Source: Oleiharenicola lentus (lineage in GTDB: Bacteria; Verrucomicrobiota; Verrucomicrobiia; Opitutales; Opitutaceae). Taken from it: a stretch of 64,000 bases of DNA. The stretch is from the NCBI RefSeq assembly GCF_004118375.1, contig NZ_SDHX01000002.1, positions 310,001 to 374,000 of the forward strand, written 5' to 3'. The notes below the pieces were generated by a model, which was not told where the DNA came from, searched no databases, and saw only the letters and a program-made list of their open reading frames with translations. Position 1 is the stretch's first letter; each line of letters starts with the position of its first letter. The translations under genes and the position numbers were made by a program. This document shows positions 1 through 7,596 of this stretch, piece after piece.

Positions 1-436
1 CAACCTCGAAGAAAAGCAGGGTGCGCACCGGCTGTCCCGCCTGCGGTCGCGTGGCGGCGATCACGGCTTCATGCAGGCGGCGGTGGTCGATGTTCACGTC
101 ACCGGCGTGATGCGTGTAGAGCGTATCGGGCCGGTGGGCGGCGATCTGGGCCTCGGCCAGTTTCACGATGTCGAGCAACGGAACCGTATCCAGACGGTTG
201 TCCGGAAGGTCTCCGAAAGAAACCGACGTGACGCCCAGTTCCGCCAGCGCACGTCGTGAGGCCTCCCGGCGCATGGTCAAGGCCGCGTGATCCACCAGGT
301 CCCGAGAGTTGACCCCATCGGCCAGGAAGGCCACGTGGATGGCCGCGCCCTCGTCGGCATGGCGGGCCAGCGCGCCGCCGCACCCGAGGACCTCGTCGTC
401 GGGATGGGCGGCCAGCACTAGAATACGGGACTTCAA
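1..436 (-). CDS. PIG-L/LmbE-family deacetylase (3' end cut by window)
   Basis: The protein begins M-K-S-R-I-L-V-L-A-A-H-P-D-D-E, which is the zinc-binding AHPDDE signature of PIG-L/LmbE deacetylases. A second family motif, THHAGDVNIDHRR, lies about 110 residues on. Members remove N-acetyl groups from GlcNAc-type sugars. The start is TTG at 436-434, overlapping the TGA stop of pseF by one reading-frame step, so the two are translationally coupled. About 145 residues are visible and the C-terminus lies outside the window. Next to pseB, pseC and pseF it probably modifies a nucleotide-sugar or glycan intermediate, but that substrate is inferred from context only. Confidence 0.88.
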   Translation of the reverse strand, partial: MKSRILVLAAHPDDEVLGCGGALARHADEGAAIHVAFLADGVNSRDLVDHAALTMRREASRRALAELGVTSVSFGDLPDNRLDTVPLLDIVKLAEAQIAAHRPDTLYTHHAGDVNIDHRRLHEAVIAATRPQAGQPVRTLLFFEV

Positions 437-1131
437 GCGACTTGACGGGATACGCTGTCGAACATCAGCTCCGCACGAGTCCAGTCATCCAGGTTGTCGA
501 TGTCCTGCACGCGCCAGCGCGGGATGATGACCGGGTGGGAATGACGTTCAAAGAAGCGCTTGCCCTCCAGCCAGGCGTCGGGACGCCCCCAGTAGAACTG
601 GCCGGCATCGTGCAGCGCCTTGGGCAGATCCTGCGAACGGGCGGTGAACTTGTCGGGGAAAAACATCTCCACCCCACCCTCGGGATGCGGCTGGAACGAG
701 CGGAAGATCGGGGCGGCGAATTCGGTGGCCGTAAACGCGTAGGCCCAGGGTCCGGAGGCCAAGGCCTCGCAGCCGCGGCGGAGATCGGAAATGTGAACAA
801 ACGGCGCCGTGGCATAGATGCAGCAGACCGCATCGTAGGCACCGTGGCGTTCCTGCATCCAGCGGGTCGCATGAGCGATCACCTCGATGGTGCCGGCGTG
901 GTCGTTGGAAAGCTCCGCCGGCCGCATGAATGGCGTCTCCGCGCCATGCGCACGGGCGATGGCGGCGATTTCCTGATCGTCGGTGGAGACAATCACATCG
1001 GTGAAAAGCCCGCTGGCGCGTGCCGCCACAATCGAGTGGGCGATCATCGGCTTGCCGGCGAACAGGCGGATGTTTTTCCGCGGGATGCGCTTCGATCCGC
1101 CTCGGGCGGGAATGACACAAAGGTTTTTCAT
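433..1131 (-). CDS. pseF: Pseudaminic acid cytidylyltransferase (CMP-sugar synthase)
   Basis: This 232-residue protein activates a nonulosonic acid to its CMP form, the donor used by glycosyltransferases. The N-terminal PARGGSKRIPRKN (residues 8-20) is the CTP-binding signature of the CMP-NeuAc/pseudaminate synthetase family. It is followed by STDDQEIA and a DAGQFYW motif typical of PseF-type enzymes. The ATG at 1131 is chosen because it gives the family-length protein and overlaps the pseC stop as ATGA; an upstream in-frame extension would have no homology. It lies in the order pseB-pseC-pseF. A legionaminic or related sugar cannot be excluded from sequence alone. Confidence 0.9.
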   Translation of the reverse strand: MKNLCVIPARGGSKRIPRKNIRLFAGKPMIAHSIVAARASGLFTDVIVSTDDQEIAAIARAHGAETPFMRPAELSNDHAGTIEVIAHATRWMQERHGAYDAVCCIYATAPFVHISDLRRGCEALASGPWAYAFTATEFAAPIFRSFQPHPEGGVEMFFPDKFTARSQDLPKALHDAGQFYWGRPDAWLEGKRFFERHSHPVIIPRWRVQDIDNLDDWTRAELMFDSVSRQVA

Positions 1132-2312
1132 CGGCTGGGAATCGGTGACAGGGACAGGACAGTATCGATGACAAGGGCCACGTCGGCATCGGTCATCGCG
1201 GGGAAAAGCGGAAGGCTGAGCGCACGTTGGTAATACGCTTCGGCCGCGGGGCACTTGCCCGGACCGTAGCCGAAGGTGCGCCGATACCACGGCTGGAGAT
1301 GCACGGGAATGTAGTGGACCTGCGTGCCAACTCCGGCCTCGCGGAGTGCGGACATGACTTGGGACCGGGAGCGTCCCAACGCGGCAAAATCGATCTGCAC
1401 CGTATAGAGATGCCAGGAAGTCGTGGCGGCATCAGCGGCCGTGCGCAGGCCGGGCGTTCGCAGCCAATCGGTGCCGGCGAAGGCGGCGTTGTAGGCCGCG
1501 ACGATCTCGCGGCGGCGCGTCAGCACGGCTTCGAGGCGATCAAGTTGCGAGAGTCCGAGCGCACACTGGAGGTCGGTGAGCCGGTAGTTGAAGCCCAGCT
1601 CCTGCATCTCATAGAGCCAGGGACCGGGTTCCGTGGTAAATTCGGTGAAGTTGTCGGCGACCCGCTCAATGCCATGTGAACGCAGACGGCGGGCCTGCTC
1701 AGCCCAGTCGGCCCGGTCGGTCACGAGCATGCCGCCCTCGCCCGTCGTCAGTGTCTTGACGGGGTGGAAACTGAAAACCGCGAGATCGGCCCAGGGATTG
1801 CCGCCTACATTCCAGACGCGCCCTTCGGCATGAAAACTCCCACCCACCGCGTGGCAGGCATCCTCAATCACAATGGCGCCGCGTGCGCGCGCGATGCGAG
1901 AGACTTCCGGCAGGTTGGCGGTCTGACCGGCAAAATCCACGGCTACGACCGCGCGGGTGTCGTCGAGCCAGTTTTTTTCCAGCGCGTGCGGATTTATCGT
2001 GTAGCTGACTGGGTCGATGTCAGCGAAGTCCGGCGTGGCACCCACGTAGGCAGCACAGTTGGCCGAAGCGAGAAAGGTGTTGGGCGAAGTGACGACGCGG
2101 TCTCCGGGGCCGATGCCAGCCACCTTCAACGCGAGATGTAGCGCGGCCGTGGCGTTGTTGACGGCGACGGCGTGTTTCGCCCCGACCCGCGCGGCAAAGC
2201 GTCGTTCGAATTCGGCGACCAACGGCCCTTGCGTCAGATGATCCGAGCGCAGCGCGGCCACGACGGCGGCGATGTCCTGTTCGGTGATGGTCTGGCGTCC
2301 GTAGGGCAGCAT
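1128..2312 (-). CDS. pseC: UDP-4-amino-4,6-dideoxy-N-acetyl-altrosamine transaminase (DegT family)
   Basis: This 394-residue PLP-dependent aminotransferase has the DegT/DnrJ/EryC1 fold. The cofactor lysine is K186 in SFHPVKTLTTGEGG, and D151 in VIEDACHA should bind the pyridine nitrogen. Full length matches PseC, which aminates the 4-keto sugar made by PseB. The stop overlaps the pseF start (ATGA), and pseB lies 22 bp upstream, so the three form one transcription unit. The sugar specificity is inferred from the neighbours. Confidence 0.92.
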   Translation of the reverse strand: MLPYGRQTITEQDIAAVVAALRSDHLTQGPLVAEFERRFAARVGAKHAVAVNNATAALHLALKVAGIGPGDRVVTSPNTFLASANCAAYVGATPDFADIDPVSYTINPHALEKNWLDDTRAVVAVDFAGQTANLPEVSRIARARGAIVIEDACHAVGGSFHAEGRVWNVGGNPWADLAVFSFHPVKTLTTGEGGMLVTDRADWAEQARRLRSHGIERVADNFTEFTTEPGPWLYEMQELGFNYRLTDLQCALGLSQLDRLEAVLTRRREIVAAYNAAFAGTDWLRTPGLRTAADAATTSWHLYTVQIDFAALGRSRSQVMSALREAGVGTQVHYIPVHLQPWYRRTFGYGPGKCPAAEAYYQRALSLPLFPAMTDADVALVIDTVLSLSPIPSR

Positions 2313-2334
2313 GGTCGCATCCGTGCGTGATGGT

Positions 2335-3432
2335 TCAGGCGACGGTCTTGAGTTCGGTGAAATGCGGGTGGCGGCTGTCGCGGCCGGGGTCGGCGCGGAG
2401 GAACTCGGCGGATTCCACCTGCTCGGCGATCAGCTCGCGCAGCTCGGGGACGGATAGAAATTGCGGGTTAGTGCCGCTGTTGTAGCAGAATCCCGCGGGC
2501 ACGCGGGTGGCCTCATGGCCTGACGCATACTCGTCGAACGAGTATTCGGCTCCATTGGGCAGAATCGCGTAGTAGCGGCCGAGATCCACGGTGTTGTAGC
2601 TGTCGGAGCTGGTGATCATCTCCTCGTGCAGTTTCTCGCCGGGACGCACGCCGACGACTGGATGCGGGCACTCGGGGGCGATCGCGTTGGCCAGGTCCAT
2701 GATGCGATAGGACGGAATCTTCGGCACGAGAATCTCGCCGCCCCAGGCGTGCTGGATGCTCCAGAGCACCATGTCCACGCCCTCCTGGAGCGTGATGTTG
2801 AAACGGGTCATCTCCGGATCGGTGATCGGAAGCACACCGGTCTTCCGCTTCTCGAGGAAGAACGGGATGACCGAACCACGGCTGCCCATCACGTTGCCGT
2901 AGCGGACGACGCTGAGACGGAGATCGCGCGAGCCTTTGATGTTGTTGGCGGCGACAAAGAGCTTGTCGGAGCAGAGTTTGGTGGCGCCGTAGAGGTTGAT
3001 CGGGGCGGCGGCTTTGTCGGTGGAGAGCGCGACCACGCGGCGCACGCCGCTGTCGAGGCAGGCCTCAATGAGGTTCTGCGCGCCGAGGACGTTGGTCTTG
3101 ATGCACTCGAAGGGGTTGTATTCCGCCGTCGGCACCTGCTTGAGGGCGGCGGCGTGGACGACGACGTCGATGCCTTCCAGGGCGCGACGCACACGGCGCT
3201 CGTCGCGGACATCGCCGATGAAGTAGCGGAGCGCAGGATGGCGGCTCGGCGGAAACTCCTGGGCCATCTCGAACTGCTTCAACTCATCGCGGGAGAAGAT
3301 CACCAGGCGGCGGATATTCGGGTAGCGGGCGAGCACGGTGCGGACAAAGGCCTTGCCAAACGAGCCGGTGCCGCCGGTGAGCAGGATGCTGGTGTTGTCG
3401 AGAGAGTGCAGGGGACTGTGGACGGGGGGCAT
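2335..3432 (-). CDS. pseB: UDP-N-acetylglucosamine 4,6-dehydratase (inverting)
   Basis: First enzyme of pseudaminic acid synthesis, an extended short-chain dehydrogenase of 365 residues. The NAD(P)-binding GGTGSFG lies at residues 20-26. The catalytic set expected from the PseB/FlaA1 family is visible as D139, K140 (STDK) and Y148 in NLYGATK, with K152. AAALKQVPTAEYNPFE is diagnostic of the inverting dehydratase. The ATG at 3432 is preferred; the open frame continues upstream but with unrelated, low-complexity sequence. The C-terminus has about 20 residues beyond the usual end (SRHPHFTELKTVA). Confidence 0.93.
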   Translation of the reverse strand: MPPVHSPLHSLDNTSILLTGGTGSFGKAFVRTVLARYPNIRRLVIFSRDELKQFEMAQEFPPSRHPALRYFIGDVRDERRVRRALEGIDVVVHAAALKQVPTAEYNPFECIKTNVLGAQNLIEACLDSGVRRVVALSTDKAAAPINLYGATKLCSDKLFVAANNIKGSRDLRLSVVRYGNVMGSRGSVIPFFLEKRKTGVLPITDPEMTRFNITLQEGVDMVLWSIQHAWGGEILVPKIPSYRIMDLANAIAPECPHPVVGVRPGEKLHEEMITSSDSYNTVDLGRYYAILPNGAEYSFDEYASGHEATRVPAGFCYNSGTNPQFLSVPELRELIAEQVESAEFLRADPGRDSRHPHFTELKTVA

Positions 3433-3485
3433 GGTGGATCGGAGATGGGAGATTGGAGACGGAAGGCCGGCGACCAGAGGATGGT

Positions 3486-4115
3486 TCAGGCGGAAACGGC
3501 GGTGGCGGTAATGCGGGAGCGAAAATAGGCGCGGTATGCCGGCTCGTAGGCCAGTTCGGAGCACAGTGCGAGGTAGGCTTCGTCGTTGGAGACGATCAGC
3601 TCGTCCAGCCCGAGGCTGCGCAGCAGGGCCGCACCCGTGAGGGAGCGGAACGTGCCGCCTTCGCAAGTCACGACCGGCAGGCCGTGTTCGAGCGCATCAG
3701 CCGCGACGTGAACGCCGGCAAAGGAATGCGTGTCGAGATAGACATCGCCGAGCTTGAGCAGCTCGCCGGCATCCGTGCACGAAGGGAAGCGGATGCTGGA
3801 GACGATCAGCCGCTCGGGGGCCACACCGTGGGCCTCGAGTACGTGGTCGAACTCCGCGCAGAAGCGTTTGATCGGATAGGGTGACGAGCCGTTATCATTG
3901 AGGGGATGCAACAGGAGACGTGCGCCCGGGACGGCGGCCAGCAACCGGGCCCACAGCTCAAGCATCTCGGGCGTGATTTTGTAGAAATTGGCGGCCGAAA
4001 CGAAAAGCATGGTGTTCTCAGTCAGGCCAATGTGTGCACGGGTCCAGGTGCGCACCGGCGCTACGGGAGCGACGGAAGTCGGGGAAGCGGAGTCGGCGAG
4101 AGTGCAGGGATTCAC
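3486..4115 (-). CDS. Isolated C-lobe of a GT41-like glycosyltransferase
   Basis: The 209-residue product resembles only the C-terminal nucleotide-sugar lobe of the large TPR glycosyltransferase encoded at 5427-7370. Compare LWARLLAAVPGARLLL here with LWARVLAAVPGSRLLL there, and LDTHSFAGVHVAADALEHGLPVVT with that protein's LDT...CEALWMGVPVVT segment. The family Lys after LLL (LLLKG) is replaced (LLLHP), and no TPR or N-lobe is present. Translation starts at GTG 4115, eight bases after the stop of the upstream gene and in another frame. It may be the second half of a two-piece enzyme or a decaying paralogue. Confidence 0.7.
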   Translation of the reverse strand: MNPCTLADSASPTSVAPVAPVRTWTRAHIGLTENTMLFVSAANFYKITPEMLELWARLLAAVPGARLLLHPLNDNGSSPYPIKRFCAEFDHVLEAHGVAPERLIVSSIRFPSCTDAGELLKLGDVYLDTHSFAGVHVAADALEHGLPVVTCEGGTFRSLTGAALLRSLGLDELIVSNDEAYLALCSELAYEPAYRAYFRSRITATAVSA

Positions 4116-5426: not shown

Positions 5427-7370
5427 TCAGGCCACCGCGCGGGTGGAGTTCTGTGACGCACACCACGCCATCCAGCACTCACGGAGGGCCGCCGCAAACC
5501 GTGCCGACTGACCGGCGTGATCACCGAGCGGCGAGTTGCGGACCTCTTCGCGCAGGCCGGCGCGGATGGCCGCGAGCTTCAAGGGATCAGCAGCAAGTTC
5601 CGTAGCTATACGCAAGTAGTCTTCGGGCGTTTGTGCCACCCATTCGCCACGGCCGATGGCCGTCAGCAGGCTACCGCTGACGCGCGCCACATGGCGATCA
5701 CCCATGAGGGTAACCACGGGTACGCCCATCCAGAGCGCTTCGCAGGTGGTCGTGGTCCCGTGGTAAGGGAAAGTGTCGAGCGAGATATCCACGCGACCGT
5801 AAAGCGCGAGATGGTCGTCGGTTTTGGCCGTGCGCTCGAGAAACTCAATCCGCTGCACCGGCAGGCCCGCCGCGGCGAACCGCTCAAAGTAGCGCTGACG
5901 CACGGCCTCATCGCCGAATCCCCTCCCCTTCAGCAACAGCCGCGAACCTGGCACCGCCGCCAGCACCCGCGCCCACAACGCGAGCGTCGCATCCGTGACC
6001 TTGGCCACGTTGTTGAAGCTGCCGAAGGTGACCGGGCCAATGTTCGTATTACGAACATTGGGCTGGGAGCCGTCGTCGGGGGCACCGGTGGGAATGTTCG
6101 TATTACGAACATTCACCTCGGGGGTGACGGGCGGGGGCTGGTAGGCCCAAGCGGTCGGGGCGAAGCGGACGAGCTTCTCGGTGGCGAGCGCATCGGCGGG
6201 GCCGACGGGATCCACAATGGCGTCGGTGAAGCGGTAGTGCATGGCCGACAATCCGGTGGTGTTGGGGTAGCCGAGGTAGTTCACCTGTACCGGGGCGAGG
6301 TGGCGGGCGAAGAGCGGCAGGCGCGAGGTCATGCCCGTGTGCCCGGCGAGGTCCACGAGAATGTCGGGGGCGTCGGAGCGGATGGCCTTCTCGACGGCTG
6401 CATCAGACTGGCCGACAAAATTGCGCCAGACCGATGCGAATCCCCTGAGTTTCTCCGAGACCGCATCGACGCGGAAATGATCGTGGTAGAGGTAGAGTTC
6501 GAACTGTGTGGGATCGAGATGACGGAGCAGGGGCTCGAGGAACCAGGCGCACGAGTGGGCGCGCAAATCAGGCGAGAGAATGGCGAGACGGAGACGGCGA
6601 GACGGAGACGGATCATTGGCAAAGACCGGCGTCGGGTGCCGGCCGACAGCCTTGCCGTAGGCCACATGCTCGGCAAACAGCTGCTCGCGAGGCAGATCGT
6701 CGAGGTGATTGAGCGCGTAAAGCCGGTAGCTACGCGCTTCCAGATTGCCTGGCTCGAGCTCCAGAAACTTGTCGTAGGCGGCGATGGCCTCGGGGATGCG
6801 GTGCATCTGTTGCAGCACCTGGGCCCGGCCATAGTAAGCCTTGGCGTAAGTCGGATCGATGGCGATGGCACGCTCGTGGCAGGACAGCGCCTCGGACTGG
6901 CGGCCGGCAAGGCTGAGCGTGAGTCCGAAATTGTAGAGCCCCTTGGGAAAGGAGGACTGCAGAGTGAGCGCCTTCTGGTGGCACTCAATGGCGGCGGACA
7001 AACGGTCCGACAGCTTCAGGCAGTGCGCGAGACCGTCCCAGGCTTCGGCAGAAGCGGGATCGAGCGCCACCGCGGTGCGAAACGGCTGCTCGGCGTCCGC
7101 GGCCCGGCCGGCCGCGGTAAGCGCAAAGCCGAGGCGCAGTGCGCAGGGGGCGTTTTTCGGCCCGAGGCGGTGAGCCTTGGAGAGCAGTTCCACGGCCTCG
7201 GCGGCACGACCGCGCTGGAGGGCCACGATGCCGGATAGATGCACGGCATCGAAGTGGTTGGGCAAAGCCGCGCGCACCCGCCGGTAAAGTGCCTCGGCCT
7301 GGTCCAGCCGCCCGGCACGGTGATGCACAAGGGCATCCTGCAACAGGCGTTGGTATTGGGCGTGTGACAT
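5427..7370 (-). CDS. TPR-containing GT41 (SPINDLY/O-GlcNAc-transferase-like) glycosyltransferase
   Basis: The 647-residue protein has an N-terminal array of about six to seven TPR units (residues 5-240, for example AEALYRRVRAALPNHFDAVH). The catalytic region follows from about 260 to 640. GT41 motifs visible are LVDLAGHTGMTSRLPLFARH, VTFGSFNN, LLLKGRGF with the UDP-contacting Lys, and DTFPYHGTTTTCEALWMGVP. Such enzymes transfer sugars to Ser/Thr of proteins; in bacteria several glycosylate flagellin or adhesins, which fits the nearby pse genes. The start ATG 7370 (MSHAQYQRLLQ) leads straight into the TPRs. Residues 420-426 and 438-444 are both NVRNTNI, encoded by two copies of a 21-bp palindrome inserted in the linker before VTFGSFNN. 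Confidence 0.88.
   Translation of the reverse strand: MSHAQYQRLLQDALVHHRAGRLDQAEALYRRVRAALPNHFDAVHLSGIVALQRGRAAEAVELLSKAHRLGPKNAPCALRLGFALTAAGRAADAEQPFRTAVALDPASAEAWDGLAHCLKLSDRLSAAIECHQKALTLQSSFPKGLYNFGLTLSLAGRQSEALSCHERAIAIDPTYAKAYYGRAQVLQQMHRIPEAIAAYDKFLELEPGNLEARSYRLYALNHLDDLPREQLFAEHVAYGKAVGRHPTPVFANDPSPSRRLRLAILSPDLRAHSCAWFLEPLLRHLDPTQFELYLYHDHFRVDAVSEKLRGFASVWRNFVGQSDAAVEKAIRSDAPDILVDLAGHTGMTSRLPLFARHLAPVQVNYLGYPNTTGLSAMHYRFTDAIVDPVGPADALATEKLVRFAPTAWAYQPPPVTPEVNVRNTNIPTGAPDDGSQPNVRNTNIGPVTFGSFNNVAKVTDATLALWARVLAAVPGSRLLLKGRGFGDEAVRQRYFERFAAAGLPVQRIEFLERTAKTDDHLALYGRVDISLDTFPYHGTTTTCEALWMGVPVVTLMGDRHVARVSGSLLTAIGRGEWVAQTPEDYLRIATELAADPLKLAAIRAGLREEVRNSPLGDHAGQSARFAAALRECWMAWCASQNSTRAVA
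6039..6059. repeat. 21-bp palindrome, copy 1, inside the GT41 gene
   Basis: Arms AATGTTCGTA and TACGAACATT are perfect 10-base inverted repeats around one T. The element is seven codons long and encodes NVRNTNI in the host gene. An identical copy lies 33 bases further along the plus strand. Confidence 0.93.
6093..6113. repeat. 21-bp palindrome, copy 2, inside the GT41 gene
   Basis: Identical in sequence and orientation to the copy at 6039-6059 and in the same codon phase, so it also encodes NVRNTNI. The two copies flank a short PTGAPDDGSQP linker. Both lie in a non-conserved loop of the glycosyltransferase. Confidence 0.93.
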
Positions 7371-7596
7371 CCGGTTGTGCGCATACGCCCGGCACCGCAG
7401 GGGCACAGGGAGATTCGCACCCGCATCATCGGCACACAGAGCCGCGACTTTAGATGCAAAACTAAAGCAAGCAGCGAAATGGCCGGACGCCACTTGGGTT
7501 GCAATTGCGCTCAAGAACATAGCCCCTGGGACGTTGAAAAGCCGTCGCACCGGCCACCGGAGAAAGCCCTCCGGATGCGATTTGCGTTAATCACCC
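7371..7596. promoter_or_regulatory. Divergent intergenic region
   Basis: This 226-bp gap separates the leftward GT41 gene from the rightward HDOD gene and must hold both promoters unless a start is misplaced. The leftward frame remains open upstream of 7370 but without TPR-like sequence. No confident promoter boxes were recognised. Confidence 0.4.

Follow-up and report, generated by a model that had tools for sequence, protein, structure and literature searches.

Dispersed palindromes in Opitutaceae that co-vary with a small helix-turn-helix-like protein whose gene they bracket

This study was concerned with a 21-bp palindrome, AATGTTCGTATTACGAACATT, which occurs twice within a glycosyltransferase gene of Oleiharenicola lentus, in a stretch of 64,000 nucleotides (contig NZ_SDHX01000002.1, positions 310,001 to 374,000; hereafter the window). 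The palindrome belongs to a real protein-palindrome system of one bacterial family. A gene for a small helix-turn-helix-like protein is bracketed by the same palindrome, protein and palindrome co-vary, dispersal mostly follows the matching gene, paired copies are spaced in steps of about 10 bp, the core of the palindrome is kept up and its tips change jointly. From these sequence comparisons, the palindromes are rather probably maintained binding sites of the self-bracketed DNA-binding protein, forming a set that resembles REPs with their RAYTs, or stoperators. A literature search on the motifs and on palindromic repeats in these bacteria found no description of the system, and within the reach of that search, beyond which subscription papers mostly lay, it is apparently undescribed.

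The host gene in the window lies on the minus strand at 5427-7550 and encodes at most 707 amino acids, its start codon being uncertain. The first-pass annotation, made from the letters alone, had called it a glycosyltransferase gene, and domain searches agreed, identifying TPR repeats and a glycosyltransferase family 41 (GT41) domain (Pfam PF13844 and TPR families). The two palindromes reported in it were also recovered, at 6093-6113 (the first as the gene is read) and at 6039-6059 (the second), and no match was obtained in 100 shuffles. As had been claimed, they lie 54 bp apart start to start in equal orientation and codon phase, and the minus-strand frame reads NVRNTNI through both. The palindrome is odd-centred; 20 of its 21 bases pair and the central base is free. 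The 33-bp spacer (6060-6092, 11 codons) is unlike the other spacers. Judged by eye, the 11-residue spacer in the GT41 gene and in a cupin gene sits where orthologues carry a native linker, so that in both genes native sequence may have come to be flanked by two independent insertions. Near the glycosyltransferase gene, at 433-3666, the window contains ORFs which we take to represent a nonulosonic (pseudaminic-type) sugar pathway, as they resemble a cytidylyltransferase, an aminotransferase and a dehydratase.

The motif is not confined to the window. The host's own genome (G000; 4.71 Mb, two contigs) contains 52 exact copies of the core GTTCGTANTACGAAC, while a reversed-pattern control gave none, and 44 of the copies are exact 21-mers. 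Fifty-one copies fall in 26 loci and the 52nd, at C2:1380480, lies inside a long open frame; all placement, spacing, mismatch-scan and statistical figures given per 51 sites are without this last copy. A one-mismatch search of the genome with the core found no further copy, and the 216,755 positions of the 26 loci, the 51 sites aside, contained no 21-mer with six or fewer mismatches. The central base is T in 26 sites and A in 25. Bases 11 and 12 from the centre still pair in 35 and 37 of the 51 sites, respectively, the bases beside the 21-mer show a weak C/G preference at most, and similarity between the copies ends at about 25 bp. As a separate observation, 9 of the 19 site clusters of contig C1 fall at 800-1360 kb, 17% of its length (binomial P 0.002 for a stretch chosen post hoc).

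Most copies are intergenic, with 36 of 52 outside genes. A simple gene finder placed 15 of 51 sites in coding sequence, 13 between convergent, 11 between tandem and 10 between divergent genes, and left 2 unassigned; it overlooked the gene of the partner protein, which three of the 13 "convergent" copies surround. Coding sequence makes up 81% of the window, and a much smaller share of the copies lies in it. Coding copies favour one reading frame, [NDK]VR[NI]TN[IF], which is used in 10 of the 12 host genes (9 of 11 in the 51-copy set, P=0.0014 against one third, the twelfth gene having been added later). The annotation had named copies inside frames encoding the peptide as support for a mobile element, and on this point the count agrees with it. 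The other phase was found in the L016 and the MutY-like L027 host genes, and nearly all coding copies of two congeners (G020 and G018) are read in the favoured frame. The host proteins include two SNF2 helicases, RsmB, GH2, MoeA, FG-GAP and cupin proteins, together with others that are presumably NadB-like and MutY-like. No functional theme was seen among the 29 proteins scanned, namely 10 host proteins and the products of 19 of the 31 neighbour genes listed.

Neighbouring copies less than 80 bp apart form 17 pairs with spacings of 52-54, 62-63 and 72-76 bp. A period of 10.5 bp fits these spacings (R=0.80, n=17), and none of 5000 uniform draws reached this R. Coding pairs in the genome stand at 54 bp, a spacing that also keeps the frame. 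In G026, where the palindrome is GTCACGTAWTACGTGAC, spacings cluster at 45-47 and 55-56 bp; the best period is 9.3 and R at 10.5 is 0.88. Such helical phasing would be explained by proteins bound on one face of the DNA. The possibility that a pair moves as one unit, in the manner of REPINs, was rejected as the present mode, as the 17 spacers resemble one another no more than shuffled spacers do. A comparison of flanks was left aside here, since those of paired sites overlap.

The partner gene lies outside the window, at G000:C1:847721-848122, and copies of the palindrome stand before, at the start of and after this small ORF (locus L014). The ORF has 134 codons as first called and 122 if the start follows the palindrome, as in the L105 orthologue. 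Its protein had no match in Pfam, and NCBIfam and PHROG matches were at chance level only. Among eight members scanned, YdaS_toxin was matched weakly in five and Y1_Tnp in none, and no catalytic domain was recognised. An AlphaFold model of middling quality (pLDDT 70.5, pTM 0.47) is helical and likely contains a helix-turn-helix (HTH). The top Foldseek rows were mostly HTH proteins, all weak, with HipB, XRE and CapH first at E 0.6-0.8. The best VIA match had a Z of 5.8. Many of the weak Foldseek and VIA matches are XRE, HipB or C-proteins, and the weak VIA list also names unrelated folds. The partner protein may well be lambda-repressor/XRE-like. HipB, restriction-modification controller proteins and other XRE repressors, all among these weak structure matches, autoregulate through palindromes but act at one or a few operators, and we know of no dispersed, co-diversifying palindromes for any of them.

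A palindrome beside the gene is found in most of the family. The 21-mer pattern brought up loci with eight homologues; the core is near the gene in seven of them and not in L089. In L049, L096, L105 and L122 one core starts 19-20 nt upstream of the start codon, and another starts 3-17 nt from the first base of the stop codon. Homologues were identified in 25 of 57 genomes searched, namely the own genome, all 20 congeneric genomes and four further ones. A palindrome centred on TAWTA, in which 7 or more of the 9 arm positions pair, stands beside 47 of 55 homologues and on both sides in 31, against 1 of 55 control stretches, in a scan that left aside L138, L144 and L153 and in which some control stretches were shortened by locus ends. 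The general form is TGTNNNNTAWTANNNNACA, from which the GTTCG type differs in being one base shorter per arm. Arm types include AACG, CACG, CAAC, CACC/CACT, AGTC, CATC/CATT, AATA and AACC, and not every palindrome is perfect.

The arms vary with the protein. Reading of the arms was tried on 63 homologues, of which L144 and L153 could not be parsed and L142 was dropped as a miss, and 52 were left for the analysis of co-variation. Among 37 non-redundant members, protein and arm distances were correlated (Mantel r=0.50, reached in 0 of 20,000 permutations, which are not independent of the tree because the members share ancestry). The nearest protein relative in another genome had a mean arm distance of 0.09 versus 0.36 for the others and was closer in 36 of 37 cases. 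There are exceptions. L142 has no convincing palindrome, and L145, L146, L151, L152, L155, L164, L274 and L286 have no symmetric palindrome with 7 of 9 arm pairs; L145, L151, L152 and L164 carry an asymmetric AGTATACTATTAGTTGACA-like sequence in its place. In the subfamily of L144, L145, L151, L152, L153 and L164 the ends are asymmetric, with a sequence such as AAGTATACTATTAGTTGACAT upstream and the inverse of it downstream, and resemble terminal inverted repeats more than perfect palindromes. Beside some other partner genes the palindromes reach 41-43 bp with variable outer arms (L149:1462-1504, L147:1779-1821 and L160:1915-1955).

A profile of 20 members was then run against 288 genomes of the phylum and gave 20 hits. 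The 14 strong hits are all in the same family, and the six weak HTH hits outside the family have a palindrome beside none of the genes. Seven new genomes are among the strong hits; their matches number 16, of which seven were read, one gene per genome, and the palindrome was found upstream in all seven and also downstream in five. In a genome collection, 81 stretches contained the 21-mer, and all bar one carry the labels Opitutaceae, Opitutia, genera of Opitutaceae, or Verrucomicrobia/Verrucomicrobiota. The remaining stretch (L081) comes from a metagenome-assembled genome labelled Actinomycetota with a GC content of 66.8%, which may reflect mis-binning or transfer. No viral contig contained the 21-mer, and a phage origin was rejected for this reason.

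Dispersal mostly follows the presence of the matching gene. Within the genus, at least eight exact cores were found in all four genomes with a GTTCG-type gene (52, 27, 10 and 8 copies) and in none of the 17 without it, five of which hold one to four copies. Of the other arm types, GTNACGTAWTACGTNAC has 35 copies in G026 and 24 in G017. The seven new genomes hold 20, 26, 21, 7, 9, 2 and 0 copies of GTCACSTAWTASGTGAC, which fits the gene-side palindrome in G315 (20 copies), G141 (26), G204 (21) and G225 (9), versus 0, 0, 0, 0, 0, 0, 0 and 1 in eight genomes of the family in which no gene was found. Similarly, TGCCGTAWTACGGCA has 10 and 8 copies in two genomes and none in 15 others, and fits the gene-side palindrome of G213 (10). 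The counts of GTCACSTAWTASGTGAC and TGCCGTAWTACGGCA include copies beside the gene, and in G099 and G185 the gene-side palindromes have other arms. The correspondence has exceptions as well. G141 holds 19 CACG-type (GTCACGTAWTACGTGAC) and 7 CACC-type copies, and the only gene found there carries CACC; some of its GTCACGTAWTACGTGAC copies are paired 46 and 56 bp apart. G024 and G021 hold 5 and 2 copies of GTNACGTAWTACGTNAC with no partner gene found, in G021 by a single-protein search only. In the own genome two GTAACGTAATACGTTAC palindromes (G000:C1:574944 and 1100836), for which no matching partner gene was found there, are possibly remnants of a subfamily since lost. Of the hits with three or fewer mismatches, 8 of 105 in genomes with a partner have a mutated core versus 4 of 16 in those without, a borderline difference (P=0.053).

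The history of individual sites was followed between G000 and its sister species G020. G020 has 27 copies, of which 22 could be aligned to a G000 locus, and 19 of these 22 stand at the same position. At the 19 shared sites the core shows 0 changes in 266 bases versus 17% in the flanks (P about 2e-22 if bases are independent). Both arm tips differ at 15 of these sites, one at 2 and neither at 2, and the centre is flipped in 7. At the 15 sites the tips are AAT..ATT, or nearly so, in G000 and AAA..TTT in G020, where the three copies around the partner gene are all AAA..TTT; the presumed recognition region reads HKAR in the G020 protein versus HRAR in that of G000. Judging from AAT in G018 and G011, AAA would be the derived state. 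Three G000 sites are themselves AAA..TTT, and one of these seems to be the orthologue of a pair in G020, so that some AAA..TTT sites may predate the split of G000 and G020.

Orthologues without palindromes exist in the genus for the GT41, cupin, SNF2, NadB and RsmB genes. The motif is thus not conserved in all homologues, and a conserved role of the palindromes in the host protein was rejected. For the two copies in the window, that at 6039-6059 is present with AAA..TTT tips in the G020 orthologue and missing in G003 and G012, and that at 6093-6113 is half-switched in G020, a decayed remnant in G003 and missing in G012. G003, in which a GTTCG-type gene was not found, has the RsmB and GT41 copies in decayed form; codons have changed, but the peptide is partly kept. 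Net length change against orthologues is none in RsmB and MutY, +54 bp in the RsmB of G018 and about +78 in SNF2 (by eye); GT41 and cupin exceed distant orthologues by about 51 to 60 bp (by eye). These length comparisons yielded no clean insertion footprint. A pair in one species corresponds to a single copy in another twice, with a difference of 54 bp, in RsmB and in the gene at C2:1380480 versus L238 of G020 (by eye). Recombination between the copies, with collapse of the pair, would be consistent with this.

If the palindromes are maintained binding sites, the small HTH protein would bind them with one dimer per palindrome, and the two dimers of a pair would sit on one face of the DNA. The protein would repress its own gene through the copy at the gene start. 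Dispersed pairs would serve as roadblocks or as bridging points, in the manner of stoperators on a chromosome, and not as promoter operators, because the sites are convergent, tandem, divergent and coding and no gene theme was seen. Copies would have been inserted into intergenic DNA and into protein loops that tolerate them, and selection on binding would keep them while the partner protein persists; in its absence copies are few and some are decayed. Several points stand against binding sites. The protein model is of middling quality and the fold matches are weak. Without a functional theme among the 29 proteins, no reason is apparent for selection to keep the sites. Copy numbers from 0 to 52 among congeners indicate that the set is dispensable. 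There are copies without a matching gene (CACG in G141, GTNACGTAWTACGTNAC in G024 and G021), L142 and the eight other homologues lack a symmetric palindrome, and the excess of core-mutated copies in genomes without the partner is borderline.

A more far-reaching interpretation, put forward tentatively, is a kind of genome parasite or symbiont that has not been described. It would consist of a gene of some 130 codons in which no transposase domain is recognised, with a 19-21-bp palindrome (TGT-NNN(N)-TAWTA-(N)NNN-ACA) bracketing it. The gene would spread copies of the palindrome alone, in helically phased pairs, into intergenic DNA and reading frames, keep them identical and diversify into many protein-palindrome specificities within one bacterial family. 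A related but somewhat more doubtful explanation is a minimal mobile element, in which a palindrome of 21-25 bp is copied around the genome, aided by the HTH protein whose gene it brackets and by replication or repair in the host, and active donors rewrite existing copies, keeping them identical and changing their tips jointly. The all-or-none character of the copies in both mismatch searches, the orthologues without palindromes, the tip changes that extend to the pairs inside the G020 genes for GT41 and cupin proteins, and a partner gene bracketed like a mobile unit would all suit such an element. However, 19 of 22 alignable sites are common by descent with G020, the half-changed tips (2 of 19) and the free flips of the centre (7 of 19) suit single-base change over block copying, and neither a catalytic domain nor a shared flank was recognised.

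The first-pass annotation had likewise suggested a protein-tolerated mobile micro-element, as in Rickettsia. The many copies, their in-frame position and the empty alleles agree with this suggestion, while the lack of shared sequence beyond about 25 bp, the 36 of 52 non-genic copies and the sites shared with G020 do not. Rickettsia palindromic elements (RPEs) are described in one source as palindromic copies within reading frames that give a recurring peptide (PMC10969869), and in-frame copies in unrelated genes were found here too. However, RPEs are about 150 bp long, whereas these palindromes are 21 bp, mostly intergenic and accompanied by a matching bracketed protein gene. With no sequence common beyond about 25 bp and spacers like shuffled ones, the palindromes do not represent an element of the Rickettsia type, with its length of about 150 bp, and shared sites with perfectly kept cores argue for maintained protein-binding sites over freshly moving inserts.

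An ordinary regulon, in which the sites would be the operators through which an autoregulated transcription factor controls genes nearby, is improbable. The HTH-like protein with a palindrome at its own start codon, the strong site conservation and the tip change accompanying HRAR to HKAR speak for one, but the sites are spread over all gene arrangements as counted above, no functional theme was seen among the 29 proteins, and a regulon does not usually have identical 15-bp cores. Binding sites of a dispersed kind are known from mycobacteriophage L5, whose repressor is described as having more than 20 stoperators, also in short intergenic spaces (PMC9283540). Those are given as asymmetric 13-mers bound by a monomer in a phage genome, whereas the sites here, at which binding is only predicted, are symmetric, often paired, and spread across a bacterial chromosome and into genes.

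Classical REPs moved by a RAYT (TnpA-REP, a HuH transposase), as reported for Opitutus terrae, are already disfavoured and very unlikely: although the palindromes are short, many REP dimers stand 20-100 bp apart and the own genome has four Y1_Tnp genes, no GTAG or CGTC tag stands beside the palindrome at the 51 sites, the core is missing from all four Y1_Tnp neighbourhoods (about 3 kb each) and the bracketed protein has no Y1_Tnp match. REPs and REPtrons are described as dispersed short palindromes, often in pairs with variable spacers, with a gene beside its own palindromes and co-evolution of the two (PMC8266576, PMC3733652); TnpA-REP is said to co-evolve with its cognate REPs (PMC8266576), and among genomes compared for GTAG/CGTC REPs, O. 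terrae is given as highest in intragenic GTAG repeats (PMC3733652). The system described here shares the gene beside cognate palindromes that are scattered genome-wide. It differs in having no GTAG/CGTC tag before the palindrome, in a partner that is a small helix-turn-helix-like protein and not a HuH tyrosine transposase (Y1_Tnp), in pair spacing that follows the DNA helix and in the lack of degenerate core copies in the own genome. By the tests run, the palindrome set is not a REP.

Should the palindromes be maintained binding sites, the L105 orthologue would bind ATGTTCGTAWTACGAACAT and not TGTCACGTAWTACGTGACA, and would do so cooperatively at pairs 53 bp apart and not at pairs 58 bp apart. 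In addition, proteins of the G000 type would prefer AAT..ATT tips and those of the G020 type AAA..TTT tips. The system offers a natural series of protein-DNA specificity, with dozens of homologues, most of which have a candidate recognition palindrome beside the gene, and the copies within a genome seem to track changes in the protein. The mechanism of REP dissemination has been called poorly understood (PMC8266576), and the present system provides a test of how short palindromes spread and persist in bacterial genomes without a recognisable transposase.
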